Shown here piece by piece: positions 9,981 to 59,790 of a stretch of DNA of 64,000 nucleotides. The notes under the pieces were generated by a model, which was not told the DNA's origin, searched no databases, and saw nothing but the letters and a program-made list of their open reading frames with translations. A program made the position numbers and the translations under genes. How positions within the stretch are numbered: position 1 is the stretch's first letter; every line of letters starts with the position of its first letter. The DNA is from Deferribacter desulfuricans SSM1 (GTDB lineage: Bacteria; Chrysiogenota; Deferribacteres; Deferribacterales; Deferribacteraceae): NCBI RefSeq assembly GCF_000010985.1, contig NC_013939.1, positions 1,269,501 through 1,333,500 of the forward strand, written 5' to 3'.

Positions 9981-10013
9981 TTAGAACTTAGAACTCAGAA
10001 CTTTGAACTTATA
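9981..10013. repeat. AGAACTT-type short repeat
   Basis: A run of imperfect units (TTAGAACTTA, GAACTCAGAA, CTTTGAACTT). Its last 17 bases (9997-10013, AGAACTTTGAACTTATA) recur exactly at 60045-60061. The copy overlaps the stop codon of the downstream minus-strand gene, so the element may have supplied the gene's end. Confidence 0.6.
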
Positions 10014-11541
10014 CCTTCTCCCATTCAAAATTTATGATATTTTTTTCTTCAGAGCTAAATTCTATACCTACAAGGTAAATTTCATTCGACTTATCTAAAT
10101 ACTTTTCTGCATATTTTTTCTCTTTTATCTGCCTTAAAGCTTCACCCCTTTTACCATCTACCTTAAATTCAACTATATAAATCTTATCATTGACAAATAA
10201 TGTCAAATCGATCCTACCCTTATTCGTCACATCCTCGCCTATAATCTTTATACCAAGTGAAGAAAGATAAGCAAAAATCACACTGGCATAAAAACCTTCA
10301 TATAAATTTAATTCATTTTTCACATAATTGGTATATGGTATTGATGAAAAAAGTCTTATTAAAGCATCCTTAAAATCATTTAGATTTCCAAAATAAAGTG
10401 ATTTTATTAGCGGTTCTTTAATCTTTGTATCACCATTATAAAGATAACGAATAATATAATCATTTAAAGATATCTGAACTTCCAAGTTTGGTATCCTGAG
10501 ACTGTATTCTATTGACTGCAAAAGTTCATTTTGTATCACTTTATCTATGGTTAAATAACCAGATTGAAAAAGTAATACTTCTAAATCCATTTGCTCTATA
10601 TCAAAGCTAGATAATATCTTATCATCAACTACTAAATTACTTAAATTTGGTAGAAAATAATTTCTCTCTTTTATCAATTTAATCAAAAAAGATGGCGTGC
10701 CTGTTTCAAACCAATAGTTTCTAAACAAATACCCGTTACTGATAAATTGTAAAATATCAAACGGATTATACACATTATCTTTTAAGAAGTTGTAACCATT
10801 GTACCATCTTTTTACTTTTTCCATATCCACGTTTTCTAAATATGGTTTAAAAGTTGTCTCAAGGTCATACTGTGTATAACCACAAATATTACCAAACCTT
10901 GGATTAAGGGAAATATCAGTAAGCATATTTAGTCCACTAAAAATCGATGCTTTTGAAAACTTACTCACACCAGTTAAAAATGCAAATTTGACATAAGCAT
11001 CATTATCTTTGATTATAGAGTATAAACCTCTTAAAAATTCTCTATGCAACTTTGCTTGCTCAATATCTTCTATCACATCAAGAATAGGCTTGTCATACTC
11101 ATCTATCAAAATCACTACTTTCTGATTGTATTTTTTATAAGCTTTATAAATCAAATCTCTAAAACAACTGCCTGGATCTGTTACATTATCACATGTTACT
11201 TCTAAGTTTTCTTGATTAAATTTAAAAATATCTAATGCAACCTGTTTTAAACTCTCAAGAGTCTGTAAATCCCCTGCCCAGCTTATTTTAATTACCGGGT
11301 ACTTTTCATCCCAATCCCATTTATCATAAATGTATAAACCTTCAAAAAGCTTTTTATTCCCCTCAAAAAGCTCTTTTAGTGTATCCAAGAAAAGTGATTT
11401 ACCAAATCTACGAGGGCGAGAAAGAAAAACATATTTATAATTGTCTACAAGTTCAAATGCTTCAAAAGTTTTATCCACATAAACATAATTATTTTCCCTT
11501 ATCTCTTTAAAAGATTGAATACCTATTGGAAGCTTTTTCAT
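10009..11541 (-). CDS. AAA-ATPase-like protein with C-terminal PD-(D/E)XK nuclease domain
   Basis: 510 aa. The N-terminal AAA-ATPase_like domain holds LPIGIQSFKEIRENNYVYVDKT and the P-loop region SRPRRFGKSLFLDTL near 41-55, with VVILIDEYDKPIL as Walker B. The C-terminal PDDEXK_9 domain holds GRIDLTLFVNDKIYIVEFKV, giving the D...ExK signature. This paired family is common and often multicopy in anaerobes; its function is not established. The gene stands alone, with a palindromic repeat before it (11593-11662) and another repeat overlapping its stop. That placement, and unrelated neighbours, suggest a mobile or acquired gene, but no transposase is seen. Confidence 0.85.
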   Translation of the reverse strand: MKKLPIGIQSFKEIRENNYVYVDKTFEAFELVDNYKYVFLSRPRRFGKSLFLDTLKELFEGNKKLFEGLYIYDKWDWDEKYPVIKISWAGDLQTLESLKQVALDIFKFNQENLEVTCDNVTDPGSCFRDLIYKAYKKYNQKVVILIDEYDKPILDVIEDIEQAKLHREFLRGLYSIIKDNDAYVKFAFLTGVSKFSKASIFSGLNMLTDISLNPRFGNICGYTQYDLETTFKPYLENVDMEKVKRWYNGYNFLKDNVYNPFDILQFISNGYLFRNYWFETGTPSFLIKLIKERNYFLPNLSNLVVDDKILSSFDIEQMDLEVLLFQSGYLTIDKVIQNELLQSIEYSLRIPNLEVQISLNDYIIRYLYNGDTKIKEPLIKSLYFGNLNDFKDALIRLFSSIPYTNYVKNELNLYEGFYASVIFAYLSSLGIKIIGEDVTNKGRIDLTLFVNDKIYIVEFKVDGKRGEALRQIKEKKYAEKYLDKSNEIYLVGIEFSSEEKNIINFEWEKV

Positions 11542-11878: not shown

Positions 11879-11893
11879 TGGCACAGTATTTGC
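11879..11893 (+). promoter_or_regulatory. Sigma-54 promoter of the pilin operon
   Basis: TGGCAC (11879-11884), five bases, TTGC (11890-11893): the GG and GC pairs are 12 bases apart as sigma-54 requires. The expected transcription start is near 11905, leaving a short leader before AAGGAGG and the pilA ATG. Pilin genes are classic sigma-54/PilR targets in Pseudomonas, Myxococcus and Geobacter. Confidence 0.85.
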
Positions 11894-11929
11894 TTATTAT
11901 AAAACAGAAAACCCATTAAGGAGGTAAAT

Positions 11930-12133
11930 ATGAAGAAAACGAACAAAAAAGGTTTTACTTTAATTGAGCTGCTCGTTGTAGTAGCTATCATCGGTATTTT
12001 AGCAGCTATTGCTATCCCCCAATTCGCAAAGTATAGAAAAAATGCTCAAGATTCTGCTGCTCTTAGTGATCTAAAAACAATTCAATCAACTGCAGAAGCT
12101 TTTTATGCTGACAAAAATCATTATCCATATTAA
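11930..12133 (+). CDS. pilA: Short type IV major pilin (PilA-N / e-pilin-like)
   Basis: 67 aa, far below the usual 140-170. The prepilin leader KKTNKKG is cut before [13 protein letters not shown], giving a mature peptide of 59 residues with E5 in place. The N-terminal helix sequence through [12 protein letters not shown] closely resembles Geobacter sulfurreducens PilA. Mature aromatics are F1, F24, Y27, F50, Y51, Y57 and Y59; F1, F24, Y27 and Y57 are at the same places as I recall for Geobacter. The globular head is missing from this gene. It has a strong AAGGAGG and the sigma-54 promoter. Conductivity is a family association, not something the sequence proves. Confidence 0.92.
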
Positions 12134-12147
12134 TTTAGGAGGGTAAA

Positions 12148-12471
12148 ATGAGAAAACTAATTTTTTTGATAGTTATATTATCTTTTGCATCATTATTATT
12201 TGCAGGTGATTTTACATTAGGTTCTACTGACAATGAAACAATAAAGCTTTCTGCAAATGTTTCTGCAGATTATGATGCAGACACAAACGGTAATCACTAT
12301 GTAGCTGGAACAATGAGTTCTAAAGGTACAAAAAAATATGGTACAGCAGATACAGAGAGTGTGATTTATTATGATGAGTGTACAGGTAATGATTGCGCTG
12401 ATGATAATGTCACTTTCTCTGGATACAGTAGTGGCTTATCAACAATTCAAGGATGGACTCCAATGGAATAA
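12148..12471 (+). CDS. Secreted pilin partner resembling a detached pilin head (PilA-C/Spc-like)
   Basis: 107 aa, 14 bases after pilA with its own TTAGGAGGG. It has a Sec signal peptide (MRKLIFLIVILSFASLLFA) and a mature part of about 88 residues starting GDFTLGSTDNETIKLSANVS. The remainder is Gly/Thr/Asp-rich beta-type sequence with YYDECTGNDC, a possible disulfide, and ends GWTPME. This matches what is expected of the C-terminal head of a full-length pilin that has become a separate gene. G. sulfurreducens has the same arrangement (GSU1496 and GSU1497). The assignment rests on position and sequence character, not on alignment. Confidence 0.7.
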   Translation: MRKLIFLIVILSFASLLFAGDFTLGSTDNETIKLSANVSADYDADTNGNHYVAGTMSSKGTKKYGTADTESVIYYDECTGNDCADDNVTFSGYSSGLSTIQGWTPME

Positions 12472-12486
12472 CAATTGAACATTTTA

Positions 12487-12515
12487 GGGGAATCTATTTA
12501 AAGATTCCCCTTCTA
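12487..12515 (+). terminator. Terminator of the pilin operon
   Basis: GGGGAATC (12487-12494), loop TATTTAAA, GATTCCCC (12503-12510), then TTCTAT. It sits between convergent genes and may serve both strands weakly. Confidence 0.8.
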
Positions 12516-12517
12516 TA

Positions 12518-13411
12518 TCAATAAGTTGTTAAATCTAAAAATATATTCTCTAAATCTTTTTTTGTAGGTAAGATATCGAAAATTATAACTTTTTTTTCTT
12601 TTAATAAATCAATTATATTTACAATTTCGTCTTTTGCACATTTAATCTCATAAAGTCCTTCTTGAAGCTTTATAAATTTTAAACCCAAATTAGGGACTTC
12701 TTTGTTTACTATAATAGTAAAACCTGTAGTAGTGAGATATTTTATTTCTGTTCTTGTGAGTGATTTAACTACTTTGCCTTTATTAACGATTATTACTCGT
12801 GAGCAAATATCCTCAATATCTGGTATTATGTGAGAGCTAAAAAAGATTGTGACACCTTTATCGCTTAATTCTCTCATTTTATTTTTAAACAATACTCTAC
12901 CTATTGGGTCAAGACCACTCATAGGCTCATCCAATATCAAAATTTCTGGATTATGTATGATTGCTGCTGCAAACCCTACTCTTTGAATCATCCCTTTGCT
13001 ATATTTTCTTACAGGTCTTTTAGCAGCCTCTTTCAACTCAAACTCTTCTAAAAGTTCCCACGCTCTTTTTTTAGCAACATCCTTATCTATCCCATACATA
13101 CTTGCAGAAAACATCAATAAATCAAAACCTGTAAGTGTATCAAAATACTGAGGATTTTCTGGCATAAATCCCAATCTCTTTCTTGCCTCAGGAAGCCTAG
13201 AATCAATACCATCTATCAACACTTCCCCTTTATCTGCTCTTATCAAATCAAGCATTATCTTAATTGTTGTACTTTTACCTGCTCCATTTGGACCTAAAAA
13301 GCCTAAAATTTCACCTTGCTCAATTTCAAAGCTCATCCCATTTAAGGCATTTACTTTTTTCCCTTTAACTTTGTATGTTTTAAAAAGATTATTTACTTTT
13401 ACTTTTCCCAT
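12518..13411 (-). CDS. pilH: ABC transporter ATPase, PilH-like
   Basis: 297 aa. Walker A is GFLGPNGAGKSTTIKIML near 34-51; the signature YSKGMIQRVGFAAAI and Walker B EILILDEPMSGLDPIGR follow, with the switch histidine in FFSSHIIPDIE. This is the CcmA/NatA type that pairs with ABC-2 permeases. AGGGGAATAAAT precedes the ATG, which lies 23 bases inside the upstream TPR gene. In Myxococcus xanthus an ABC transporter (PilG, PilH, PilI) encoded next to pilA is needed for pili. The symbol rests on that neighbourhood; the ABC family call itself is certain. Confidence 0.8.
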   Translation of the reverse strand: MGKVKVNNLFKTYKVKGKKVNALNGMSFEIEQGEILGFLGPNGAGKSTTIKIMLDLIRADKGEVLIDGIDSRLPEARKRLGFMPENPQYFDTLTGFDLLMFSASMYGIDKDVAKKRAWELLEEFELKEAAKRPVRKYSKGMIQRVGFAAAIIHNPEILILDEPMSGLDPIGRVLFKNKMRELSDKGVTIFFSSHIIPDIEDICSRVIIVNKGKVVKSLTRTEIKYLTTTGFTIIVNKEVPNLGLKFIKLQEGLYEIKCAKDEIVNIIDLLKEKKVIIFDILPTKKDLENIFLDLTTY

Positions 13412-14285
13412 ATTTATTCCCCTTTTTATCTATAAATGCTAATTTGCTTGTAGTTCTAACCTTTCCATCTTTATCTAAGTAAAATTTGCCACCATATGGA
13501 TCCACTGGTATCTTCTTTAATACTTGAGACTTGACCAAATCTTCAATTGTTTTAGGTTTTTTACCAAACTTTTTCTCATAATTTTTAACAGCTTGCTCAA
13601 TTTGGTAAATAGCTTCCAAAGCTCTTAACCTTATTTCATAAGATTTTCTAATACTTTCTTTTCTAGTAATTTTTATCATAGTCTTTAAGTATGCTATACC
13701 AAGCTCAGTTTCACCACCTTCATAAAAATACCTTGCAGCCAATTTCGTAAATAATGGTGACTTTGATATTTCTGAAGCTTTTTTATAATATTTGGCAGCT
13801 TTTTTATAATCTTTTAAAAAATATGCATAATTAAAACCGATAAAAAATGGTATCTTAAAATCCCATGTCCTATATTTCATTACATATTCAAGCAATCTGT
13901 TAACTTCATTTACCCTACCAATATCCCATGTAAAAGCTGCTTGAGCAAAATAATAAGCATCCTCATTATAAGGGTTAAGTAAAATTGATGTTTCTATTGT
14001 CCTGTATAAATTATAATACTCAACTTCATTATACCTTCTTTGCTGAACTTTTTCCACCTTCCCACCATAGTAGATTATCGCTTTAAATGATAAATATTCA
14101 CCCATAAACCATCTATATTCACCAAGTATAGCTTTATAAAATTTCCCCTGTGGTGTATATCCAAGCTTTTCAAAAAGTGGACGGTTTTGCATATCTTTTT
14201 TAAAATAAGGCGTATAAATTACCAACAAAACAATTGAAAGTATAAAAACAAATATAAATAAAGAGTTATTTACTTTTTTTGTCAT
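13389..14285 (-). CDS. Membrane-anchored TPR protein of the pilus ABC operon (PilG-like position)
   Basis: 298 aa. One N-terminal membrane helix (about 9-27) leads into an extracytoplasmic region of helical repeats (YAYFLKDYKKAAKYYKKASE, ARYFYEGGETELGIAYLKTM). The last 60 residues read EKKFGKKPKTIEDLVKSQ, then LKKIPVDPYGGKFYLDKDGK, similar to the C-terminal 'PVDPWGNPY' loop of GspG pseudopilins. It overlaps both the permease (ATGA) and the ATPase. A comparable accessory protein accompanies pilus ABC transporters in delta-proteobacteria. Role unknown; perhaps it contacts pilins. Confidence 0.65.
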   Translation of the reverse strand: MTKKVNNSLFIFVFILSIVLLVIYTPYFKKDMQNRPLFEKLGYTPQGKFYKAILGEYRWFMGEYLSFKAIIYYGGKVEKVQQRRYNEVEYYNLYRTIETSILLNPYNEDAYYFAQAAFTWDIGRVNEVNRLLEYVMKYRTWDFKIPFFIGFNYAYFLKDYKKAAKYYKKASEISKSPLFTKLAARYFYEGGETELGIAYLKTMIKITRKESIRKSYEIRLRALEAIYQIEQAVKNYEKKFGKKPKTIEDLVKSQVLKKIPVDPYGGKFYLDKDGKVRTTSKLAFIDKKGNKYGKSKSK

Positions 14286-15067
14286 GTTAAGTCCCGCTTA
14301 TTAAAAATCATTACAGCAAGACTTATCACAACCATTAAATAAATGAAAAAATAACCTAAAGAAAACAATATTGACTGAGTACTTATTTTTAAAGAATACG
14401 CTGCATAAGCCGTCAAATCAAAAGCAGAAAAATTTGGTAAAATATAATAAACAACCTTTACAACAATTTTTACAAAATTTGAAATGTGTTCCTTACTTTT
14501 TAAAATATAATCATATATACCCTGGATTGAATTCCCAGCTAAAAAAATCGCAATTGTGGAAAAAACGGGTGTAAAAAAGGATGTAGAAAAAGATGCAAAT
14601 AAAAAACCGCAAGCTAGTAACAAAGCATATTTTAAAAAAGAGAAGATATACGCACCAAAAATATTAAACCATAAAATAGGTAAGTCAGATTTATAAAAAC
14701 TTGCAGATATTTTTATAGCTACCACACCTAATACAAAGTTTATTAAAGTAATAAATAATAAAATAATAACAAAACCTAGGTATCTACCAATAAAATAGTT
14801 TACTCTCGTAACTGGATAATGAAGTAATGTAAAAGTATATTTTCTCTCAATATCTCTCCATATAGTATAAGTGCCACCAAAAATAGATAAAATAAGTAAA
14901 ATAAAAAAATTTAATGAAATAGACATAGTAATGGAAATTTCCTGTAATTGTCTCATAGAAAAATAACTAAAAACAGGTATAAAAGCATAAATCAAAATTG
15001 AAGATGCAATTAGTAAAAATAACCTATCCTTCAACAATGTCTTTATAGTAAACTTTATGAATTTCAT
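14282..15067 (-). CDS. pilI: ABC-2 type permease, PilI-like
   Basis: 261 aa from the ATG at 15067, which has GAGG five bases upstream; an in-frame GTG at 15073 overlaps that site and is less likely. Six or so membrane helices are visible (for example VIILLFITLINFVLGVVAI and ILFSLGYFFIYLMVVISLAV). GGTYTIWRDIERKYTFTLLH is typical of ABC-2 permeases. It is the first gene of a three-gene operon with the TPR protein and the ATPase, convergent with pilA. The PilI assignment is from context. Confidence 0.75.
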   Translation of the reverse strand: MKFIKFTIKTLLKDRLFLLIASSILIYAFIPVFSYFSMRQLQEISITMSISLNFFILLILSIFGGTYTIWRDIERKYTFTLLHYPVTRVNYFIGRYLGFVIILLFITLINFVLGVVAIKISASFYKSDLPILWFNIFGAYIFSFLKYALLLACGFLFASFSTSFFTPVFSTIAIFLAGNSIQGIYDYILKSKEHISNFVKIVVKVVYYILPNFSAFDLTAYAAYSLKISTQSILFSLGYFFIYLMVVISLAVMIFNKRDLT

Positions 15068-15548
15068 ACTCACCTCAAATCAAATTTTTTATATCATTTT
15101 TGAATCATACGTCTTTTAAAATAACTAAACAACCTCACTAATTAATTTATTATTAATAAGATAATTGTGCAATATATTTATGCCATAACTTGATTAAATC
15201 AATTATTATTGTAAGACATCATCTGTTAAGCATTGTTATCACAATGAATCTATTAATATTTTCTATTACAATTTACACATATATATCTTGCTATTAACCT
15301 ATCATTAAGCTTTCATCTTATCATAAAGTTATTTGTTATAGATTATTTCAATAAATATTTTTCATGACTTAAAATTTATTTAGTTTTACTTAATTTACCT
15401 ATTTTCTAATATTATTTTACAATATTTATAATGCAATCAATCATTAATAACACAAAAAACTACTATTATGCTTTTTATATCAAAATGTTACAAAACTATT
15501 GACAATTTATAATTTCTATAATAAAAAGTTGTTATACGGGAGGGAATA
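15068..15548. other. AT-rich intergenic region between the pil ABC operon and pyc
   Basis: About 480 bases, extremely AT-rich, with no coding frame and none of the palindromic repeats. TTGACA at 15499-15504 and TATAAT at 15517-15522 both occur just before pyc, but only 12 bases apart, so they may not belong to one promoter. It should also hold the divergent promoter of the ABC operon. Confidence 0.5.
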
Positions 15549-48563: not shown

Positions 48564-49140
48564 AGAAGGTATTTTACAAAATATTCAATTTCACAATATT
48601 AGATTTTATAATACTAGGAAAGAATTATTTAATATATCTGAATACATTCGATTAGAAGATATAATTTATCAAAATTCTCCACCTACTGCAGGCATTTATA
48701 AAGTCAGGGTTCTTTATGACAAACAGATCCATAAAATAGAATTCATAAAATATAAATTACCTAATATTAATAAATTAATCCTAATAAATGATGAAAAAAT
48801 AGAATACAAATATAAATTTGTCGATCGTACACAGTTTGAAGTCTTAAAAAATAATATTGGTCAAAATACTGAAGTAATTATTTGTCAAAAAGGGTATATA
48901 ACAGATACAACTTTTACAAATGTTGCTTTTTATGATGGTAAAAAATGGTTTACACCAAATACTTATTTACTGAAAGGTACCAAAAGGGAATATTATTTAG
49001 AAAACAAAATTATATATGAAGAAGAAATTAAAATAAAAGATTTGAAAAAGTTTAAGAAGGTTGCTTTAATAAATGCTATGATCGATCTATGCGAATTAGT
49101 TTTGCCAATAGAAGCAATAGAAAATTTAACATCTATCTAA
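48532..49140 (+). CDS. pabC: Aminodeoxychorismate lyase (class IV aminotransferase fold)
   Basis: 202 aa from the ATG at 48532; it overlaps pabB by 32 bases. YKFVDRTQFEVLKN carries the PLP lysine, and EVIICQKGYITDTTFTNVAF matches the class IV pattern (normally ..G.vtE...sNv). It is shorter than E. coli PabC (about 269) but like the compact forms often fused or adjacent to PabB. It converts ADC to 4-aminobenzoate and pyruvate. It is convergent with gspF, with an 8-base overlap. Confidence 0.85.
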   Translation: MSQLVETIKLKEGILQNIQFHNIRFYNTRKELFNISEYIRLEDIIYQNSPPTAGIYKVRVLYDKQIHKIEFIKYKLPNINKLILINDEKIEYKYKFVDRTQFEVLKNNIGQNTEVIICQKGYITDTTFTNVAFYDGKKWFTPNTYLLKGTKREYYLENKIIYEEEIKIKDLKKFKKVALINAMIDLCELVLPIEAIENLTSI

Positions 49141-50341
49141 TAAATGTATTTAACTCAAATAAAGGTGACATAATTGATAAAACGATAAAACCAACAATCA
49201 AACCTAAAATCAAAATAAACAATGGCTCAATAATAGATAGAAATACATTTAAAGTTTTTTCAATCTTTTTAAAGTAAAACTCTGACAACCTTAAAAATAT
49301 ATTTGCCAAATTCCCCGATTTTTCACCAGTTTTTATTGCAGCAACAAACATCTCAGGAAAACTTCCACTCTGTTTAAGACTTTCAGAAAAACTCTTACCT
49401 GATTTTATATCCTCAGTAACAAAAAAAAGAACATCTTTTAACTCTCTATTTGAAATAGAATTAGTACTTAAACTAACAGCTGCAAGAAGTGGCACACCCT
49501 CAGATAGCAAAAAATTCATAGACTCAGAAAATTTATACAAATTAATATTTAAAAACAGGTTGAACCTCAATAAATATTTATCAATTTTTTTTAAAATTTT
49601 TTCGTTTTTCTTCAAATATAACCTTATTAAAATTATTAAAATAATTAAAATAGAAATAGTCAAAACTCCATAATTTTTAATAAAATTCCCTGTAGCAATT
49701 AAAAATTTTGTAGTTGCTGGCAACTCCCTATTTACCGCAGAAAAGATATTTTTCATTTTAGGAACTACATAAGAGAGCAAAAACCCTACAACCCCCATCC
49801 CTATCGAAAGTACTATCATTGGATAAATCATTGCAACCTTGATTTTATCCATACTTTTTCTTTTTTCCTCTTCATACCTTGCAACATTTTCAAAAGTTTC
49901 AGCAAGTCTACCTGTCTCCTCGCTGGTTCTAACAAGATTAATCAAAACATCTGAAAAATAATCGTTAAACTCTTGCATTGCTACAGAAAGTTTTATCCCT
50001 TCACTGACCTTTGCAGACAGTGCCAATAAAATACTTTTAACCTTTTTATTATTTACTTGATTGCCTGTAATTTTTAACGACTCAGACAAAGGGATACCAC
50101 TTTTTAAAAGCATTGCAAGTTGAAAGAAAACATCTGGTAACAGCTTTTTACCAGAAGAAACAAACCCATTAAAATAATCTAAAATCAAAAATCGATCTTT
50201 CGATTTTACATCCTTAATAGATTCTACAAAAATACCTTGCTCTTTTAACTTTGAAATTACAAAATTTATCGAATTACCTTCAATTGTGCCATGAACCTTT
50301 TTACCTTCAGAATTGAACCCTGTATATTTATAAACTGGCAT
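49133..50341 (-). CDS. gspF: Type II secretion inner-membrane platform protein GspF
   Basis: 402 aa. Two GspF/PilC domains (about 68-190 and 270-395) with YPMIVLSIGMGVVGFLLSYV and LSIIEPLFILILGLIVGFIV as membrane helices. PVYKYTGFNSEGKKVHGTIE is the family N-terminus. It is the last gene of the minus-strand T2SS block. Confidence 0.94.
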   Translation of the reverse strand: MPVYKYTGFNSEGKKVHGTIEGNSINFVISKLKEQGIFVESIKDVKSKDRFLILDYFNGFVSSGKKLLPDVFFQLAMLLKSGIPLSESLKITGNQVNNKKVKSILLALSAKVSEGIKLSVAMQEFNDYFSDVLINLVRTSEETGRLAETFENVARYEEEKRKSMDKIKVAMIYPMIVLSIGMGVVGFLLSYVVPKMKNIFSAVNRELPATTKFLIATGNFIKNYGVLTISILIILIILIRLYLKKNEKILKKIDKYLLRFNLFLNINLYKFSESMNFLLSEGVPLLAAVSLSTNSISNRELKDVLFFVTEDIKSGKSFSESLKQSGSFPEMFVAAIKTGEKSGNLANIFLRLSEFYFKKIEKTLNVFLSIIEPLFILILGLIVGFIVLSIMSPLFELNTFIR

Positions 50342-50344
50342 CTT

Positions 50345-51802
50345 CTACTCAAATTTTGTAACTGCTAAAACTTCTTCAACAGTGGTAATCTGATTTTGAA
50401 TAAGTTTAGCACCCTCTTCTATTAATCGCTTATATCCATATTTCTTTGCAACTTTTGCAATCTCTTCAGAATCAGATTTCGCATTTATCAACCTTCTAAT
50501 TTCATCATTTATTTCTAAAAATTCAAAAATAGCAGTCCTACCTTTATATCCAGTTCCAAAGCAGTGTTCACACCCTTTTCCTATTACAGCTCTTTCAAGA
50601 ATAATACCGTACTCTTTAAACAATTCTTTTACATTATCATCTAAATCAACTTCAATTTTGCAATGTTCACAAACTTTCCTTAATAATCTCTGTGCTATCA
50701 CAATCTGCAATGAAGAAGATATCAAAAATGGCTCTACATTCATATCTATTAATCTTGCAACAGCTGTTGGTGCATCATTGGTATGGAGAGTAGAAAAAAC
50801 AAGATGACCTGTTAAAGAAGCCTGCACAGCTGCTTTTGCTGTTTCTTCATCCCTAATTTCGCCAACAAGAATCACATCCGGATCTTGCCTTAAAAACGAT
50901 CTTATAGCTGATGCAAAATCAAGGTTTACAACAGGATTTACCTGCACTTGAGTAATACCATCAATATCGTATTCTACAGGGTCTTCAATTGTCACAATAT
51001 TTTTCTCTTCTCTATCTATTTCCAGTAGGGAAGCATAAAGAGTAGTAGTTTTACCACTTCCTGTAGGTCCTGTTACCAAAATGATACCATTTGGTCTATT
51101 TATATATTCTCTATACTTTTTAAGATAGTGCTCTGGCATCCCAATATTTTCGAGAGTTATCAACCCTTTTGTTTTTTCCAAAATCCTTAAAACTGCTTTT
51201 TCTCCCCTAATTGAGGGAATAATAGAAACCCTCATATCCACGCCGCGATTTCCAACTTTTATATTAATTCTTCCATCCTGAGGTTTTCTTGTTTCAGCCA
51301 CATCAAGCATAGACATAACTTTTATTCTTGCAATTACCTGGTCATGAATCCCTTTTTTAAAAGTTCTTATAGTTCTCAACACACCATCAATCCTATATTT
51401 TACCAAAAAAGTATTTTCACCGTTTTCAAAATGAATATCGCTTGCATCAGCTTTTACTGCATCAACAATCAATTGATTTACAAGGTTAATAATAGGTGCA
51501 TCCTGATAACTTGCAGAAAGTATATCCTCTATTTCACTATTATCTTCATCATGTCCAAAGTCTTCTACATTATCAAAATGTTCGCTAATATCTTCAAGCT
51601 TAGATAATATCTCCTTTTTATCAACAGGTCTAAAATCATACTGTAAACCTACTCTATCAGCCAAAAGCAAACCTTTTTTAAAACCTGACTCGTTAGAATA
51701 AAGTATTGTAACAGAATTATCATCCTTTAATTCTGGGAAAAAATCCCCTTTATCTGGAAATTTAAGATAAAACTTTATAATATTATCTTTTATCTGGCTC
51801 AC
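50345..51802 (-). CDS. gspE: Type II secretion ATPase GspE
   Basis: 485 aa from the GTG at 51802 (AGGA seven bases upstream); a TTG at 51808 is the other option. Walker A is LVTGPTGSGKTTTLYASLLE, Asp box TIEDPVEYDIDGITQVQV, Walker B DPDVILVGEIRDEETA, and a zinc site with CEHC and CEHCFGTGYKG. It powers pseudopilus assembly from the cytoplasm. The N-terminal GspL-binding domain is short but present. It overlaps gspD. Confidence 0.95.
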   Translation of the reverse strand: MSQIKDNIIKFYLKFPDKGDFFPELKDDNSVTILYSNESGFKKGLLLADRVGLQYDFRPVDKKEILSKLEDISEHFDNVEDFGHDEDNSEIEDILSASYQDAPIINLVNQLIVDAVKADASDIHFENGENTFLVKYRIDGVLRTIRTFKKGIHDQVIARIKVMSMLDVAETRKPQDGRINIKVGNRGVDMRVSIIPSIRGEKAVLRILEKTKGLITLENIGMPEHYLKKYREYINRPNGIILVTGPTGSGKTTTLYASLLEIDREEKNIVTIEDPVEYDIDGITQVQVNPVVNLDFASAIRSFLRQDPDVILVGEIRDEETAKAAVQASLTGHLVFSTLHTNDAPTAVARLIDMNVEPFLISSSLQIVIAQRLLRKVCEHCKIEVDLDDNVKELFKEYGIILERAVIGKGCEHCFGTGYKGRTAIFEFLEINDEIRRLINAKSDSEEIAKVAKKYGYKRLIEEGAKLIQNQITTVEEVLAVTKFE

Positions 51803-53648
51803 TCTCAATTCCTAACTTTTTCTTATTTTGCTCTTTAATCACTTTCATAAACTGCTTTTTCTCTGAAGTAATCAAATCGATATCCTGTCTTGTATTAATA
51901 ACCTTTGCAGTAATAAATACCATCATATTAGTTTTGGATCTGCTTCTATTTCTTGATTTAAACAACCAGCCAAGAATAGGTATTTTTGATAAAAATGGAA
52001 CTTCACTATTACTCACAGAAGTATCATCCCCAATAAGTCCACTTATTACCATCGTGTAGCCATCAATTAATTCAACCATCGTTTTTGTTTTTCTTGTCAA
52101 AGTAATAGGTGCAGTTAAGTCATTCCCAGCATTTGCTATAACTTTTTTGACTTCTTGCTCAATTTTTAGAGTAAGGGTTTTATTATCAGAAATATGTGGA
52201 GTTATCTTTAGCCTAATACCTACATCTCTATAATCGTATGATTGGACTGGATTATTATTTGCATCAAATTTTGTACTTGTTAGAAAAGGCCTGTTTTCAC
52301 CAACAAATACTTCAGCTTCTTCATTATCAAGGGTCAAGATCTGTGGATTAGAAATAATATTGATTGCACTATCAGTTTTTACAAAATTGACAAGAGCCGA
52401 AAGTGTTGGAAATTTTACCCCTTCATAAGTGATAACATTACCAAGAATTGCAGCAGTAAAACCGCCAGGCAGTGCAGCAAAATTTGGTGAATTTCCTTCT
52501 AAAACTGGAGATTGAAAGTTTGTTAATGCTCCATTATTTAAAAACCCAGCACTTCCAGCAAAATTTTCATTTCCACCACCTGCAAGCCATTCCACTCCAA
52601 AATCAGCCCCTTTTTCAATAGAAGTTTCTAAAACTAATGCTTCCACATAAACCTGTTTTCTTGGTTTATCAAGTTTTTCTAACAGTTGTTGAATATTGGA
52701 ATATAGCTCCTTATCCCCAAGTGCAATAATAGAGTTTGTTGATTTATCAGCAGCAACTTTAGATCTAACAACCTTTTTTTTCTTAGGATCAATATTTGAA
52801 AGCAGTAATTTATTCAATATCCCTTCCACATCAGTAGCATAAACATGTTTCAGTTTAAAAACCTGTGGTGCAAGTGCGCTATTATCATTACTTACATCAA
52901 GCTGATTTATGATGTATTCTATTTTGTTAATATCATCTTCTTTAGCAGCTACAATTAGAGTATTTGTAAAATCATCAGCTATAATAATGGGATTGAATGA
53001 AACAAGTGCTTGGGCTTGAAGCTGTTTAAAAAATTTAGTTATATTCTTTTCTATATTTGATGCTGAACTATTTTTAATAGAATAAGCTTTTAACTCATAA
53101 CTACCAGCAAGCTTGGAAATCTTATTTATAATATCTTTTATTTTCAAAATTCTATCTGCAGTATCTCTTATAACAACTACATTCGCACCCTTTAATACCT
53201 GCACATCTCCATACTTAGACTTTAATCTAGCTAATGAGGAAGCTATTTTACTCACATCTATTCCATCAAAATAAAGGACGGTAGTAATAAAATCATTCTT
53301 TGTTACATTATCCACATCTACAAATCTATCATCTATCTCTCGGACTTCATTTTTCTTTAATATTTGTAAATAAGTACCTTTATCAAGAGCATAAAGATTG
53401 TTCATACTTAATACTGTATTCATAATTTCTAACAAATTATCCTTTGTTAATTTTGATTTTGTATCAATAGTAATCTGACCTCTTATCTTTGATTCATCAT
53501 AAACGATGGATTTACCTGTAAATTCTGATACAAAAAGTAAAAAATCTTTTAAACTTACATTTTTAAAATTTGCATCAAAGTTTTCTGCAAATGAAGCCAA
53601 AGCAATAAAAGTAAAAACTATTAAAAATAATACTCTTTTCACTCTCAT
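51783..53648 (-). CDS. gspD: Type II secretion outer-membrane secretin GspD
   Basis: 621 aa from the ATG at 53648 (AAGGGG upstream). Signal peptide RVKRVLFLIVFTFIALASFA; N0 domain FKNVSLKDFLLFVSEFTGKS; N1-N3 repeats with FKLKHVYATDVEGILNKLL; secretin domain with FVGENRPFLTSTK and VPFLSKIPILGWLFKSR. It has no lipobox, so it probably relies on another pilotin or none. It forms the outer-membrane channel. Confidence 0.95.
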   Translation of the reverse strand: MRVKRVLFLIVFTFIALASFAENFDANFKNVSLKDFLLFVSEFTGKSIVYDESKIRGQITIDTKSKLTKDNLLEIMNTVLSMNNLYALDKGTYLQILKKNEVREIDDRFVDVDNVTKNDFITTVLYFDGIDVSKIASSLARLKSKYGDVQVLKGANVVVIRDTADRILKIKDIINKISKLAGSYELKAYSIKNSSASNIEKNITKFFKQLQAQALVSFNPIIIADDFTNTLIVAAKEDDINKIEYIINQLDVSNDNSALAPQVFKLKHVYATDVEGILNKLLLSNIDPKKKKVVRSKVAADKSTNSIIALGDKELYSNIQQLLEKLDKPRKQVYVEALVLETSIEKGADFGVEWLAGGGNENFAGSAGFLNNGALTNFQSPVLEGNSPNFAALPGGFTAAILGNVITYEGVKFPTLSALVNFVKTDSAINIISNPQILTLDNEEAEVFVGENRPFLTSTKFDANNNPVQSYDYRDVGIRLKITPHISDNKTLTLKIEQEVKKVIANAGNDLTAPITLTRKTKTMVELIDGYTMVISGLIGDDTSVSNSEVPFLSKIPILGWLFKSRNRSRSKTNMMVFITAKVINTRQDIDLITSEKKQFMKVIKEQNKKKLGIESEPDKR

Positions 53649-53658
53649 CAAACACCCC

Positions 53659-54510
53659 TTAATCTATCTCAACAAAAATAGATTTTTTAACTCCTCTTCT
53701 AATTAAATCCACTTTTACCGCTGTAACATCTGAAATATTAGTTAACAGTTCTAGCATTTTCTGAGGATTCTCCACCGATTCGTCATTAATTCTCACAATT
53801 ACATCACCGTTTCTTAGTCCCAATTTATACAAAATTGAATTTCTTCTAATTCTAGCAATACGATAACCTAAAAATTCTTTATTACGATAGTAAGGAGCTA
53901 CAAATATTGTCCTAAGTAGGGAATTTATATCTTTTAACTGTTTATCCACCTCTTGTCTGGATATTTTAAAAGTATCCGATTTAGAAGTTTTACTCTTTTG
54001 CACAGGCTTAGTCTTTACAGCAGTCTTATTTTCAGTTTTTTTACTTCCACCTACTAATTTTACTTTATAACTTTTACCATTGTGTAAAATAATCAAATAC
54101 TCATCATTAATTTTATCAACAATAAAACCATCAACAGGCTCTTTATTGTTTAACACATAAGTTTTTGAATTTATTTTTATCAATGCCAATATCTTATCTT
54201 TGTTTGCAACATAGCCTAATAATTCAAATTTAATATCTGCACTAATTTCATTTGTTTTTTCTTCAACTTTAGTTACCTGCGTGATCTGCTTTTCCTCTTT
54301 TTTTAGATTAAAAGGGTTTAACTCTAATATTTCGTTTACATTAACCTTTTCAGATTTTATTTTTTTTACATTATTCTTTAATGTTATATCTACAGTTTTG
54401 TTAGAATATTTATAATTGATATATTTAGTTACAGTAAAAGATATGAAATAAGCTAAAACTGCCAAACAAATCAAAATAACAATACTTTTTCTACCCACAT
54501 CCTCATCCAA
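53659..54510 (-). CDS. gspC: Type II secretion GspC-like protein with PDZ domain
   Basis: 283 aa. One N-terminal membrane helix (about 8-28), a homology-region domain (about 90-150) with IKFELLGYVANKDKILALIK, a Lys/Thr-rich linker, and a C-terminal PDZ domain with KLGLRNGDVIVRINDESVEN. GspC links the inner-membrane platform to the secretin, which is the next gene. It overlaps the CPBP gene by eight bases. Confidence 0.85.
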   Translation of the reverse strand: MDEDVGRKSIVILICLAVLAYFISFTVTKYINYKYSNKTVDITLKNNVKKIKSEKVNVNEILELNPFNLKKEEKQITQVTKVEEKTNEISADIKFELLGYVANKDKILALIKINSKTYVLNNKEPVDGFIVDKINDEYLIILHNGKSYKVKLVGGSKKTENKTAVKTKPVQKSKTSKSDTFKISRQEVDKQLKDINSLLRTIFVAPYYRNKEFLGYRIARIRRNSILYKLGLRNGDVIVRINDESVENPQKMLELLTNISDVTAVKVDLIRRGVKKSIFVEID

Positions 54511-54907
54511 TAAATATATTTAAATTAAAAAAAGCATGTAGTAATATACACATTATAACATTTTCATACTTATCATAAATCATACCTAAAATCAATGAAG
54601 GAATAATCACCAAAACAGAATGAATAATATTATTATAAATCAAATGAGACAAACCAAATAATAATGAAACAAAAATATTGGCATTTGAAATAAATAAATA
54701 TTTATTTTTTATAATTAATTTTGAAAAAAAATTCTTTCTTTTTAGTTCTCTTTGTAAAAACCCTCTAAAAAATAGCTCTTCAATAATAGGTGAAAAAAGT
54801 AAATAACTTAATATTTCTAATCCACTGTAATTAAAATTTAGTGTTCCTGTTAATACAAATCGTATAAATAAATAAACTATAGTAATTAAAATAATTACAT
54901 ACACCAT
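54503..54907 (-). CDS. Short CPBP-family intramembrane protease
   Basis: 134 aa. Motif 1 is SPIIEELFFRGFLQRELKRK (EExxxR), motif 2 LLFGLSHLIYN with His, motif 3 ILLHAFFNLNIFIG with His/Asn: the CPBP/CAAX protease set is complete. It is shorter than the usual 200-300 residues, with about four membrane helices. It is the first gene of the minus-strand T2SS block, upstream of gspC. The substrate is unknown; a role with pseudopilins or secreted proteins is speculation. Confidence 0.8.
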   Translation of the reverse strand: MVYVIILITIVYLFIRFVLTGTLNFNYSGLEILSYLLFSPIIEELFFRGFLQRELKRKNFFSKLIIKNKYLFISNANIFVSLLFGLSHLIYNNIIHSVLVIIPSLILGMIYDKYENVIMCILLHAFFNLNIFIG

Positions 54908-54992
54908 TTTTAAATTTTACCACTATATCAATCAATATCAACCCCAAAACTTTATAAACATAACTAAGTTTTGTGAATCTTTCGCAAAAAAC

Positions 54993-55020
54993 TTGATTTA
55001 ATTGTAAGTTGATTTAAAAT
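54993..55020 (+). promoter_or_regulatory. Candidate promoter of the gspG operon
   Basis: TTGATT (54993-54998), 16 bases, TAAAAT (55015-55020), about 20 bases before GGGAGG and the gspG ATG. It lies in the 141-base divergent region between the two T2SS blocks. Confidence 0.35.
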
Positions 55021-55048
55021 ATAAAAAATTAATTTTTAGGGAGGCAGT

Positions 55049-55483
55049 ATGAAAAATAACGAAGGTTTTTCACTAATCGAATTGATGGTTGTCATTGTGA
55101 TACTTGGTATTTTAGCAACAGTTTTATTACCAAAAATTATAAACAGACCAGATGAGGCAAGAGTAACAAAAGCAAAAAGCGATATAAAAACAATAGAATC
55201 AGCATTAAAATTATACAAGTTAGACAACGGAATGTACCCAACAACTGAGCAGGGGCTCAGCGCACTGATAAAAAAGCCAGAAATAGAACCGATACCAAAA
55301 AACTGGAAAAATGGTGGTTATTTAGACGCAAACAAAATACCTGTTGATCCTTGGGGTAACCCATATATCTATCGCTCCCCTGGAGATAATGGAAGAGATT
55401 ACGAAATAATTTCTTTAGGTGCAGATGGTAAAGAAGGTGGTGAAGGAGTAAATGCAGATATTAAAAGCTACGAAATAAATTAA
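55049..55483 (+). CDS. gspG: Major pseudopilin GspG
   Basis: 144 aa. Prepilin leader KNNEG then [20 protein letters not shown] with E5. The C-terminus has the GspG features [31 protein letters not shown] and the calcium-site loop [25 protein letters not shown] precedes the ATG. Confidence 0.97.
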
Positions 55484-55490
55484 TTTTATA

Positions 55491-55919
55491 ATGAATCTAG
55501 AATTAAAAACAGGTGCATTTACCTTTATAGAATTACTCATAATTATTGTAATATTTGGACTTTCACTTATGTTTATCACTCCTAAGATCGCTGCTAAATT
55601 TTCTGGTTTAAATCCAGTAGAAGCAGGAATAAATAACATTATAAATATAGCTTTTTTAGATGCTCAAAAAACCAAAAAACCAGTGTTTATAAAAGGGATA
55701 AAAGGGACAAATAAACTTTTTTTGGATAACAAAAGTTATGAAATAAAAGATATAGAGTCATTTCAAACTGTAGAAATAAACGAAATCAATCAACCAGGAT
55801 TAGATTTTTACATCGGTGTGTATCCAAAAAGGTTTGTAGATAGTTTTAAAATAGAAACAAATAACGGTATTATCAAATCTAATTCCTTAGGGTTAACATG
55901 TGAATTTTCGAAAAAATAA
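55491..55919 (+). CDS. gspH: Minor pseudopilin GspH-like
   Basis: 142 aa. The prepilin site is KTGA/FTFIELLIIIVIFGL: E5 is present, but the residue before the cut is Ala instead of Gly. The rest is low-similarity pseudopilin head. Assigned GspH by position between gspG and gspI. Confidence 0.75.
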   Translation: MNLELKTGAFTFIELLIIIVIFGLSLMFITPKIAAKFSGLNPVEAGINNIINIAFLDAQKTKKPVFIKGIKGTNKLFLDNKSYEIKDIESFQTVEINEINQPGLDFYIGVYPKRFVDSFKIETNNGIIKSNSLGLTCEFSKK

Positions 55920-56238
55920 AGGCTTTACCCTACTTGAAGTTTTAATAGCTCTATCAATCGCAGCAATAAGTATAATTGGGATTTATTCCCTTACAAACAA
56001 TTCCATTGATATTTTAGATTCTTCACAGAGCAAATTATCATTATTGAATAAAACTTATGAATACATAATAGTAAAAGATAAATATCCAAACTCAACCTAT
56101 TTTGAAAAATCAAAAAACAGCGAAATAACTTTCAAAGATGAACTAAAAGGGTCAATATATGGATTTGTGGACGAACATATTTTAACAGCTGAAAATAAAG
56201 ACTCAAAAATTTATATTCGATATTTTGTGAAAAAATGA
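55900..56238 (+). CDS. gspI: Minor pseudopilin GspI
   Basis: 112 aa, starting at GTG 55900 inside the end of gspH. Leader NFRKNKG then FTLLEVLIALSIAAISIIGI, with E5 and the GspI-type LLEVLIAL. The length is usual. It overlaps gspJ by ATGA. Confidence 0.88.
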   Translation: MNFRKNKGFTLLEVLIALSIAAISIIGIYSLTNNSIDILDSSQSKLSLLNKTYEYIIVKDKYPNSTYFEKSKNSEITFKDELKGSIYGFVDEHILTAENKDSKIYIRYFVKK

Positions 56239-56747
56239 AAAAAGGGTTTACATTAATAGAATTACTTGTCGCTTTTACCATCTCTATTTTTGTTATTATT
56301 ACTGTATATTCACTAGTTTCATCTATTGTTGAGATAAAAGATTCTTCTTCAAAAAAGATAGAGGAACTAAAGGAAAAAATTGGTATCCAAAAAATCATCA
56401 ATCTCGATATTACAGCGCTAACTAATACAAAATTTGAAAAAAATGAAGGTTTTGAAACTAATAGCATTTCGTTTTACTCAATGAACTCGCTTTTTTTTAA
56501 TTCTGGAGTAAAAGTAAAAATAACTTATTTATTTGAAGATAATAATCTTTACAGAATAGAAGAAAATGAAAAACTGGGCTATAAAGAACAATTTGTATTA
56601 TTGCAAAATGTAGAAGAATTTAAAGTATTGAGCTTTGATGGTAATGATTACACTGAAAATTTTGATAAAGCATATGTACTAAAGTTTATTATAAAAACTA
56701 AAAACCATAATTATGAAATCACAGCAGGAAATATGCTATATGAATAA
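56235..56747 (+). CDS. gspJ: Minor pseudopilin GspJ
   Basis: 170 aa. Leader MKKG then [20 protein letters not shown] with E5. The head resembles GspJ in length and in the late ITYLFEDNNLYRIEEN segment. Position between gspI and gspK supports the call. Confidence 0.88.
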   Translation: MKKGFTLIELLVAFTISIFVIITVYSLVSSIVEIKDSSSKKIEELKEKIGIQKIINLDITALTNTKFEKNEGFETNSISFYSMNSLFFNSGVKVKITYLFEDNNLYRIEENEKLGYKEQFVLLQNVEEFKVLSFDGNDYTENFDKAYVLKFIIKTKNHNYEITAGNMLYE

Positions 56748-57654
56748 AAAAGGGAGTGTACTACTCATTGTATTGATTATTGTTACTGCTGCATTGGCAA
56801 TTTCATTAGGTATAAGCGAAAAAAATACCGACATATACTCAAAAGTGACAACTATGCAAAATCAATATCAAGCAGAAACTTATGCATATACAATAGCAAA
56901 AGCTGCTGCAGAAATAATTAAAGAGGATGATAATAAATATGACAGCTTAAAAGATGACTGGGCAAACAGCATATCGTATCCCACTGATGAAGGTTTCATA
57001 GAGGTCAGTATAACCCCTTTAAACAAAAAGGTAGATCTGAATGCCTTTACTTTAAACAATAAAATATTAAACGAAAGAATAATTAACTATTATAATGTTA
57101 TAGTATCTGAAAATAATCTAGATACTAATATAATCTATCTTATAAAAGATTATGTGGATAACGACACTGAAATAACAAGCTACGGGAACGAAAACCAGCC
57201 TATAATAAAATTTGGAAGAGTTTTGTCTGTAAAAAATGATTTTTTAGATACACTTTATGAAATTAATTATACCAATGAAAATTTTGATAATAAAACATAC
57301 AATATATTAAAAAGATTTTTTACAGCTTCTAATGGGGAGAAAAAAATAAATATCAATTTTGCAACTGCTGATACAATAAAATACTTTTTACCAGAAATCG
57401 CTGACTATGCAGATGCAATAGTCAAATACAGAGAATCAAAACCTTATAAAGATATTTCAGCCATTAGAAAAGCTGCAGAAATCCCCAATGATGTTTATCA
57501 AAAAATAATCCCATATATCACGGTTAAATCAAATCGATTTTATCTTAAAATTACTATTGATAACTTTGGCAACTTATTTTACTATCATGTATTAATTGAT
57601 AGGAAAAAAGGGGTCTTACTATTTTTCGAAGGGGCAAATGAAGACTACTTCTGA
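56740..57654 (+). CDS. gspK: Minor pseudopilin GspK
   Basis: 304 aa from the ATG at 56740, which places MNKKG directly before SVLLIVLIIVTAALAIS. The frame opens nine codons earlier, but that part has no leader. As usual for GspK, the Glu5 is missing and the head is large (about 300 aa). It ends in helix-hairpin-helix-like repeats (ADAIVKYRESKPYKDISAIR). It forms the pseudopilus tip with GspI and GspJ. Confidence 0.9.
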   Translation: MNKKGSVLLIVLIIVTAALAISLGISEKNTDIYSKVTTMQNQYQAETYAYTIAKAAAEIIKEDDNKYDSLKDDWANSISYPTDEGFIEVSITPLNKKVDLNAFTLNNKILNERIINYYNVIVSENNLDTNIIYLIKDYVDNDTEITSYGNENQPIIKFGRVLSVKNDFLDTLYEINYTNENFDNKTYNILKRFFTASNGEKKININFATADTIKYFLPEIADYADAIVKYRESKPYKDISAIRKAAEIPNDVYQKIIPYITVKSNRFYLKITIDNFGNLFYYHVLIDRKKGVLLFFEGANEDYF

Positions 57655-58615
57655 AACTATTATTTATATCGATCCAAATGGGAATATTAGAGATAATGAT
57701 TACAACATTATTGGCATTGATAATTTAAGCAATATTAAAAACTTTTCTATCGTTATAGATGATACATATTTTATATATGAAGTTGTAAAACCAAAATTCC
57801 CAAAAACAAGTAAAATCAAACTTTTAGCCAAAAACTATTTAAAAAGTATTTATCCTGAAGAGTTGCTAGAAAATTTATATATTTTAAATTTACCTGACAA
57901 ATCAATTATAGTTATACCTTTGCAAGAGTTCATCACATTACTGCAAAATTTTCAGAAACTATTTGATAAAGCAAAAAAAATAAGCACACCTGCTCTAGAA
58001 TGTTTAAATCAAGGAGAAAAAACTGAAATCGAAACAGAGAAATTCATCATCAAAATTGATGATTCTATCGAGTATAAACAAAAAAATAACAATATACCTA
58101 AAGATGAAGAAATAAAAATAGAATCAGTAACATTAAATATATTCAAAGAAAACTCTTACCTTAAAAATTTTAAAGATTTATTACTCCCAATAGTTACTAC
58201 AATTATTTGTTTCATATTGCTAAATATTGGATATTACTTTGACTTAAAAATCTACAAAGAAAAATACCATTATATTAATAACAAACTTATAGAACTATAC
58301 AAACAAGCTGGAGTATATGGAGATTATGATCCTTACGGTAAATTACTTTATAAAGCTCAAAAAAACAGAAAACTCAATAACCAGAAGATATTGCCAGTCC
58401 TTTACAAAATCACAAAATCATTTGGAAAAATTGGGACAATAGAGAGCCTTTCTTATAAAGGAAATTCTTTTTTTATAGATGGCACTACTTTAGACTTTAA
58501 AGCTTTAGATAATATAAAAAATAATCTAAATAAGAATTTCAATAAAGATATAAATATAATAAACACTAAATTAGAAGATAATAGAGTAAAATTTACGCTA
58601 AAGGTGAATTTGTAA
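57638..58615 (+). CDS. gspL: Type II secretion GspL-like protein
   Basis: 325 aa from the ATG at 57638 with AAGGGG before it; it overlaps the gspK end. A cytoplasmic actin-like region (about 1-180) precedes one membrane helix (LLPIVTTIICFILLNIGYYF, about 187-206) and a periplasmic ferredoxin-like domain. Sequence similarity is low, but layout and position fit GspL. Confidence 0.75.
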   Translation: MKTTSETIIYIDPNGNIRDNDYNIIGIDNLSNIKNFSIVIDDTYFIYEVVKPKFPKTSKIKLLAKNYLKSIYPEELLENLYILNLPDKSIIVIPLQEFITLLQNFQKLFDKAKKISTPALECLNQGEKTEIETEKFIIKIDDSIEYKQKNNNIPKDEEIKIESVTLNIFKENSYLKNFKDLLLPIVTTIICFILLNIGYYFDLKIYKEKYHYINNKLIELYKQAGVYGDYDPYGKLLYKAQKNRKLNNQKILPVLYKITKSFGKIGTIESLSYKGNSFFIDGTTLDFKALDNIKNNLNKNFNKDINIINTKLEDNRVKFTLKVNL

Positions 58616-59083
58616 ATGAAATTTAATGCCAACAAAGAAAAAATATATATCTTGATTATTATAATTGGCTTGATTTTTATTATTTATAATTGGAACATCT
58701 CTTATTACAAAAACAAAACGGAACAATTAAAAAAAGAAACAGAAACTCTCAAAGAAAAATACTCTAAGGTAGCAGATTTAATTCGGCAAACAAAATCCTC
58801 AAAAAACCTAAAAAAAGTAAACAAAAGTTTACTAGTCTTTATACAGGAAACAACTAATTCGTTGAACTTATCAGATAAAATAAGCTCTTTAAAACCGCAA
58901 ACTACACAAAATAATATCGAAAGTGTTAGCTTAAGAATAGAGCAGCTAAATTTAAATGAAATTATTAAAGTGTTACAATATCTTGATCAATTTGAAAACA
59001 TAAGCATTACAAAACTCAATATAAATAAAAGATTTGATGATAATACTCTTGCAGACTTGACATTAGAAGTAGTAAAACAATGA
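58616..59083 (+). CDS. gspM: Type II secretion GspM-like protein
   Basis: 155 aa. One N-terminal membrane helix (IYILIIIIGLIFIIYNW, about 10-26), a coiled coil (about 35-60, EQLKKETETLKEKYSKVADL) and a periplasmic domain ending QYLDQFENISITKLNI. It directly follows gspL, as GspM does in other systems. Confidence 0.8.
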   Translation: MKFNANKEKIYILIIIIGLIFIIYNWNISYYKNKTEQLKKETETLKEKYSKVADLIRQTKSSKNLKKVNKSLLVFIQETTNSLNLSDKISSLKPQTTQNNIESVSLRIEQLNLNEIIKVLQYLDQFENISITKLNINKRFDDNTLADLTLEVVKQ

Positions 59084-59790
59084 AAAAGTTTTTATATTAT
59101 ACAGCTTTTTTTATAATTGTTTTATTGTTAAACCTTTATGTTCATTTCCCTTATCAAACAGTGGCTGATTATTACTTAAAGCAAACTATTAAAACTTACA
59201 ATTTACCAATCAATTATAAAACTATAAAAGGAAATGCATTTAAAACAGAAATTACTAATATATCAATTGATAATCTTGAAATAAAAGAAGTTATTATCCA
59301 CCACAATATTTTAAATTTGATTAAAAGAAAAATCCCTTACTTCGTAAATGATGAAAAAATAAAAATAAATGGTGAAATCAGTAAAAATATAATCAATTTT
59401 CAAATAAACTCAGAGCTTGAAAAATTAAGTAGATTGTTTGAAACAGACACCCCTATTTCAGGAAAATTAACTGTTAAAGGTACTTATAATTTTAAAAATA
59501 ATAAGCTAACTTCAACAGTTTATATTTCAAACTTAAATATTTCTATACAAAAATTTAATTATTCTTTTGATAAAATCACTGCTGAAATAAAGAACAATAA
59601 AAACAGACTTGAAATCGTAAAAATCAATTCGACAGGTAAAAATAAAATCGATTTAAAAGGGTATGTATTAATAAATCCTAAAAAATTAGAATTTAGCAGA
59701 TTAAATTTAAAAGGTAGTTTATCCCAAAACAGGTTAAAAATAAATTTTAGAGCAACAGGAACCATTTCGAATCCACGAATAAGATTTTAA
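59080..59790 (+). CDS. gspN: Type II secretion GspN-like protein
   Basis: 236 aa. An N-terminal membrane helix is followed by beta-rich sequence with LTVKGTYNFKNNKLTSTVYI and a final NRLKINFRATGTISNPRIRF, the pattern of GspN (AsmA-like). It overlaps gspM by ATGA and is the last gene of the plus-strand block. Confidence 0.75.
   Translation: MKKFLYYTAFFIIVLLLNLYVHFPYQTVADYYLKQTIKTYNLPINYKTIKGNAFKTEITNISIDNLEIKEVIIHHNILNLIKRKIPYFVNDEKIKINGEISKNIINFQINSELEKLSRLFETDTPISGKLTVKGTYNFKNNKLTSTVYISNLNISIQKFNYSFDKITAEIKNNKNRLEIVKINSTGKNKIDLKGYVLINPKKLEFSRLNLKGSLSQNRLKINFRATGTISNPRIRF

Follow-up and report, generated by a model that had tools for sequence, protein, structure and literature searches.

The window, i.e., the whole 64,000-nucleotide stretch of Deferribacter desulfuricans SSM1 DNA analyzed here, carries a gene for a short ("headless") type IVa pilin, pilA, at positions 11930–12133 of the plus strand. 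It encodes 67 residues, of which 59 form the mature pilin according to the N-methyl motif, and it matched N_methyl (PF07963, 5.4e-11) and typeIV_PilA_Myxo (1.7e-17). Upstream lies a sigma-54-type promoter assigned by motif match, TGGCAC-N5-TTGCT (−24/−12; 11879–11894, plus strand), the sole exact match within the window. pilA is followed on the same strand by a gene for a PilA-C-like secreted protein, the split-off pilin head (12148–12471; 107 residues with its own Sec signal peptide).

Throughout the organism's order, short PilAs end at a conserved 'YP' after the long helix, and full-length relatives run on into the head. A PilA-C profile matched the C-terminal halves of the order's full-length PilAs (E 2e-9 to 1e-7). 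The adjacent secreted PilA-C proteins have about 100–120 residues, with a signal peptide in nine out of nine copies when read by eye. Judged by its sequence, the window pilin is truly split, i.e., into a short N-methylated pilin and an adjacent secreted head homologue. The layout is already known from Geobacter and Deferribacter, whose split e-pilin operons (pilA-N/pilA-C) share it: a short pilin with pilA-C was reported for Deferribacter autotrophicus (PMC6896113), and pilin fission was proposed for Geobacter (PMC5174107). A second, divergent split pair distant from the transporter genes described below occurs in one relative (G008; L094:5884–6421), and another (G010) likewise has two short pilins.

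Three genes on the minus strand face this operon at a distance of 46 bp. In the order PilI-PilG-PilH, they encode a PilI-like ABC-2 permease (14282–15073), a PilG-like membrane-anchored periplasmic TPR protein (13389–14285; 298 residues) and a PilH-like ABC ATPase (12518–13411; 297 residues). The permease has 263 residues from a GTG start at 15073, or 261 from the in-frame ATG at 15067, the end given by the earlier note. According to the reading frames, permease and TPR genes overlap by 4 bp, TPR and ATPase genes by 23 bp. The note's description of an overlapping trio beside pilA (15073 to 12518, minus strand), convergent with the genes for the 67-residue pilin and the 107-residue PilA-C-like protein, was thus accurate. 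A hairpin terminator at 12486–12511 is strong in both directions (folding z −4.5 on the plus and −5.8 on the minus strand versus shuffles); we hence conclude that the pilA unit and the trio are convergent, separate transcription units and not one operon.

In domain searches, the ATPase matched PF00005 (3.5e-31) and the permease PF12730 and PF12679 (ABC2_membrane_4/_2), the latter two below curated cut-offs. The middle protein gave weak TPR hits only, and no curated Pfam or NCBIfam family captures its signature of TPRs plus a pilin-like tail. By curated NCBIfam scores, the ATPase is neither the gliding ABC ATPase GldA (207 versus 402.6 bits required) nor DrrA (220.9 versus 312.5 bits). A 510-residue reading frame starting with MKKLPIGIQSF, apparently of an AAA-ATPase-like/PD-(D/E)XK family, lies at 10009–11541. 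Relatives (L075, L077) again have similar genes next to the trio or to pilA, which suggests a repetitive family that reshuffles this neighbourhood.

Homology to Myxococcus PilGHI

PilGHI is commonly seen as peculiar to Myxococcus, with export of pilin as its ascribed role. We compared the window trio with Myxococcus-type loci using a PilG profile built from the order's sequences and one distant group. A narrower alignment scan of genome contigs had returned just 16 loci, none of them in Geobacter or Myxococcus; Myxococcus-type genomes were therefore reached through the NCBIfam equivalog for Myxococcus PilA, NF041775, searched across one phylum. Nine genomes exceeded the 400-bit cut-off. In all four that were examined, the Myxococcus-type PilA had a PilG-profile match directly 3' of it (E 6e-41 to 2e-43); PilH and then PilI came next, and pilB lay upstream. 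These four loci were held out, i.e., absent from the profile. Their PilH proteins were 33–42% identical to the window ATPase, varying with the BLAST segment, and their PilI proteins matched the PilI profile with E 2e-42 to 1e-38. Compared directly with one such locus, window PilG was 26% identical (E 2e-21; profile 4e-43), PilH 34% over 299 residues to its counterpart, which is encoded between PilG and PilI (E 7e-59), and PilI 23% to the third gene after PilA (E 5e-14; profile 1e-38).

The window hence encodes, side by side and genetically linked with pilA, an ATPase, an ABC-2 permease and an extracytoplasmic accessory protein with a membrane anchor, each of which has a homologue among the genes that directly follow the Myxococcus PilA equivalog. 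By this homology, the window trio is PilI, PilG and PilH. It has the three components of Myxococcus xanthus PilG-PilH-PilI (MXAN_5782–5780; TCDB 3.A.1.144.5 as cited in PMC3924187), each homologous to its counterpart in the Myxococcus-type loci, and the earlier note was right to name this system. M. xanthus pilAGHI forms a single operon (PMC3546991), and the gene order at our Myxococcus-type loci is the published one. The window differs in its PilI-PilG-PilH order convergent with pilA, and its pilin is short and split, whereas the Myxococcus-type pilin is full length (208 residues mature).

The note's further point, similar genes by pilA in Geobacter, stands only in part. Sharma et al. 2018 (PMC6060248) report that the pil genes of Geobacter follow the Cystobacterineae arrangement. 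However, XapD/GSU1501, the ABC ATPase that the literature places by Geobacter pilA, is described as exporting sugar (PMC5585712). The window's split pair thus faces PilGHI, whereas the literature-named neighbour in Geobacter is XapD. One might argue from XapD that the trio exports exopolysaccharide and lies near pilA only through co-regulation of matrix and pili, and M. xanthus pilGHI deletions are indeed defective in both S motility and exopolysaccharide (PMC5544727). However, a pilB allele that suppresses their exopolysaccharide defect also suppresses a pilA deletion, and pilA mutants lose exopolysaccharide too (PMC3724824). The loss is therefore downstream of pili. Moreover, the PilG component and the gene orders match PilGHI, and no polysaccharide genes lie next to the trio in the window. 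We consider exopolysaccharide export very unlikely. The requirement of PilGHI for pilus assembly rests on the M. xanthus literature (PMC5544727, PMC3924187), where the three proteins are the R, C and M components 'necessary for social motility, pilus assembly and pilus subunit (PilA) export' (PMC3924187).

PilG architecture and the fold of PilI

In the structural model of PilG (pLDDT 83), a hydrophobic helix at the N-terminus (residues 7–33) is followed by a helical TPR array, and a helix with two short strands is modelled with confidence at the C-terminus. Foldseek grouped it with TPR proteins, with no match below E 0.001, and phmmer against PDB sequences gave nothing significant. The best conserved stretch, IPxDPYGGxFYIDxxGxVxTTS, lies within the last 70 residues. 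Outside PilG, a profile of this C-terminus matched mainly pilins and pseudopilins (18 out of 30, E down to 6e-11), along with a few small lipoproteins. From these matches, the PilG C-terminus (residues ~210–283 in the window protein) resembles a pilin or pseudopilin domain. Its ~70 residues share the helix-'YP'-LxxL-xxP-DPxG-strand layout of GspG/T2SSG pseudopilins, including the window's own GspG (55049–55483). In contrast to GspG, PilG lacks the N-methyl signal, and its tail domain sits after the TPR array and can be duplicated.

A tail was found in 78 of 96 PilGs, as one copy in 69 and as two in tandem in nine (L207, L212, L197, L205, L216, L226, L234, L235, L240). In 18 PilGs none was detectable, so the tail is not essential everywhere. 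Apparent PilG fusions of 500–860 residues in GC-rich genomes seem to be mostly upstream read-through of the frame; the tandem tail is real. Also seen were small predicted lipoproteins with little besides the PilG/pseudopilin tail domain (L279:478–834, L280:414–779, L281:482–799, L282:496–834). The window itself contains an apparently complete type II secretion set at 49133–59790, in which the minus strand carries gspF, E, D and C and the plus strand gspG with the genes after it; a 10-residue motif in its GspG parallels the PilG tail.

The model of PilI (pLDDT 76) had as its nearest PDB match NosY of NosDFY, the copper-site assembly ABC transporter (TM 0.71/0.75, E 1.4e-4, 16% identity), followed by PmtCD. 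The NosY match does not prove mechanotransmission, because ABC-2 folds are common to true exporters such as PmtCD, identity is 16% and model confidence is limited to the pLDDT of 76. NosDFY shares with the trio an ATPase, an ABC-2 permease and a periplasmic partner. The trio is, however, not a NosDFY system: the helical TPR protein PilG, with its pilin-like tail, is not a β-helix like NosD, and the neighbours are pilA and unrelated genes, not nos. Both the PilG tail and the modelled closeness of PilI to NosY appear to be undescribed in the searchable literature, which excludes the bulk of subscription articles, Wu et al. 1998 among them; the search of it turned up no mention of the tail.

Distribution and linkage to pilins

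The trio was present in 13 of the order's 46 genomes. Besides the window, eight other genomes of the order have it at 52–77% identity per subunit, and four genomes from another family carry a more divergent form. Among 385 sampled genomes, 135 had PilG-profile matches, about 98 with good coverage of the TPR region, the rest being weak or tail-only. We read the neighbourhoods of 60 of these genomes, of 19 in another phylum and of 19 regions in or near the order. A complete co-directional trio was found at 13 of 13 loci in the order and at 16 of 18 and 33 of 54 elsewhere; gene orders among complete trios were GHI, HIG and IGH.

For linkage outside the order, we used the 31 complete trios with more than 4 kb of flank on both sides; 20 arbitrarily chosen regions in genomes of the same kind served as controls. 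A pilin lay within 4 kb of 15 of the 31 trios and in none of the 20 controls (p = 1e-4). In a separate calculation of pilin enrichment, the p-value is inflated, since part of the loci had been retrieved through tail or pilin matches, and should be relied on for direction alone. About half of the trios have no pilin inside 4 kb. Several PilG genes adjoin pilM. Within the order, 12 genomes had both the trio and the PilA clade, one had the trio only, three PilA only and 30 neither (p = 1.4e-7 by genome and 9e-4 by genus). Because the genomes are related, the p-values of this survey overstate independence. PilM exceeded its cut-off in about 91 of 98 PilG-positive genomes versus 160 of 287 others. 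Two genomes, G002 and G016, have PilA and PilM with no trio detected, and the machine is therefore not universally required for this PilA clade. The tie between trio and pilin genes that the earlier note had proposed is supported by the adjacency and by the strong co-occurrence with the PilA clade.

The note had gone further and suggested that a conserved link with short or split pilins could show that the transporter moves or processes something specific to these, e.g., PilA-C. The trio does have a split pilA-N/pilA-C pair nearby in G001, G008 and G009 as well as in the window, and eight of the order's nine split-pilin genomes have it. But so do four of the six full-length-pilin genomes (p = 0.53), i.e., the survey revealed no preference. 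All pilins near the 15 pilin-linked trios outside the order are full length (mature 114–298 residues), as they are in those four genomes inside it and in the Myxococcus type. Moreover, the trio is no neighbour of the split pilin in G003, G010 and G015, where the two lie on different contigs or, in G010, far apart on the chromosome. PilA-C has its own signal peptide and can exit by Sec; no dedicated exporter is needed, which disfavours such a role. A split-pilin-specific function is thus largely refuted by the occurrence of the trio with full-length pilins, Myxococcus type included, and we regard a split-pilin cargo as hardly credible.

Could the trio instead work as an ordinary exporter, with PilG as an accessory scaffold, whose small-molecule or lipid-linked glycan substrate pili require, e.g., a pilin-modifying glycan? 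ABC-2 permeases often export glycans. A Wzy_C/O-antigen-ligase type glycosyltransferase follows pilA in G009 and G010, and a TMEM260/POM type accompanies pilA or PilG in G002 and four distant loci. However, just 7 of 96 loci had a POM-like gene in the same orientation as PilG and no more than 1.5 kb from it, not clearly above the controls (1 of 20, counted anywhere in 16 kb). In the window no glycosyltransferase adjoins the trio, and G002 has one with PilA but no trio. Glycan export would also leave the pilin-like tail unexplained, and we judge it unlikely. In three relatives, glycosyltransferases directly follow pilA/pilA-C (L078:8606–10423, L084:6865–8694, L090:6860–8746; two of Wzy_C type, one of TMEM260/POM type), which suggests lineage-specific pilin glycosylation with exchangeable enzymes.

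A proposed role in PilA handling

NosDFY acts on its periplasmic partner. Other ABC proteins, such as MacB and LolCDE, also spend ATP on periplasmic work and not on transport (PMC5985334), and in M. xanthus pilB suppression pilGHI acts genetically like pilA (PMC3724824). The pilin-like tail of PilG, the closeness of PilI to NosY and the failed split-pilin link favour a PilA-handling machine over a carrier of split-pilin cargo. We propose, with a probability of roughly 0.5, that PilGHI is a machine that uses ATP to handle PilA from the periplasm and serves type IVa pili with split or full-length PilA. PilH and PilI would form the ABC core in the inner membrane, with PilG, held by one helix, standing in the periplasm as a TPR arm with a pilin-like terminal domain. 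The ATP cycle of PilH/PilI would be passed on to PilG, which may handle PilA within the inner membrane or on its outer face, where it would place, fold or hold the pilin for the assembly platform; the tail would contact the pilin or the pilus machinery. PilGHI would then work like NosDFY or LolCDE and not as a pump for a specific solute. More tentatively, ATP hydrolysis by PilH might move PilG such that the pilin-mimicking tail, in one or two copies, occupies a site on the assembly platform or on PilA and gates subunit entry into the pilus.

With profile matches in 135 of 385 sampled genomes, PilGHI is a T4aP-associated family across many bacterial lineages and not just of Myxococcus, and split pilins are removed as its explanation. 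A TPR protein with a pilin-like tail is a clear signature of PilGHI and a concrete, testable target; this tail is the most useful new lead on the family.
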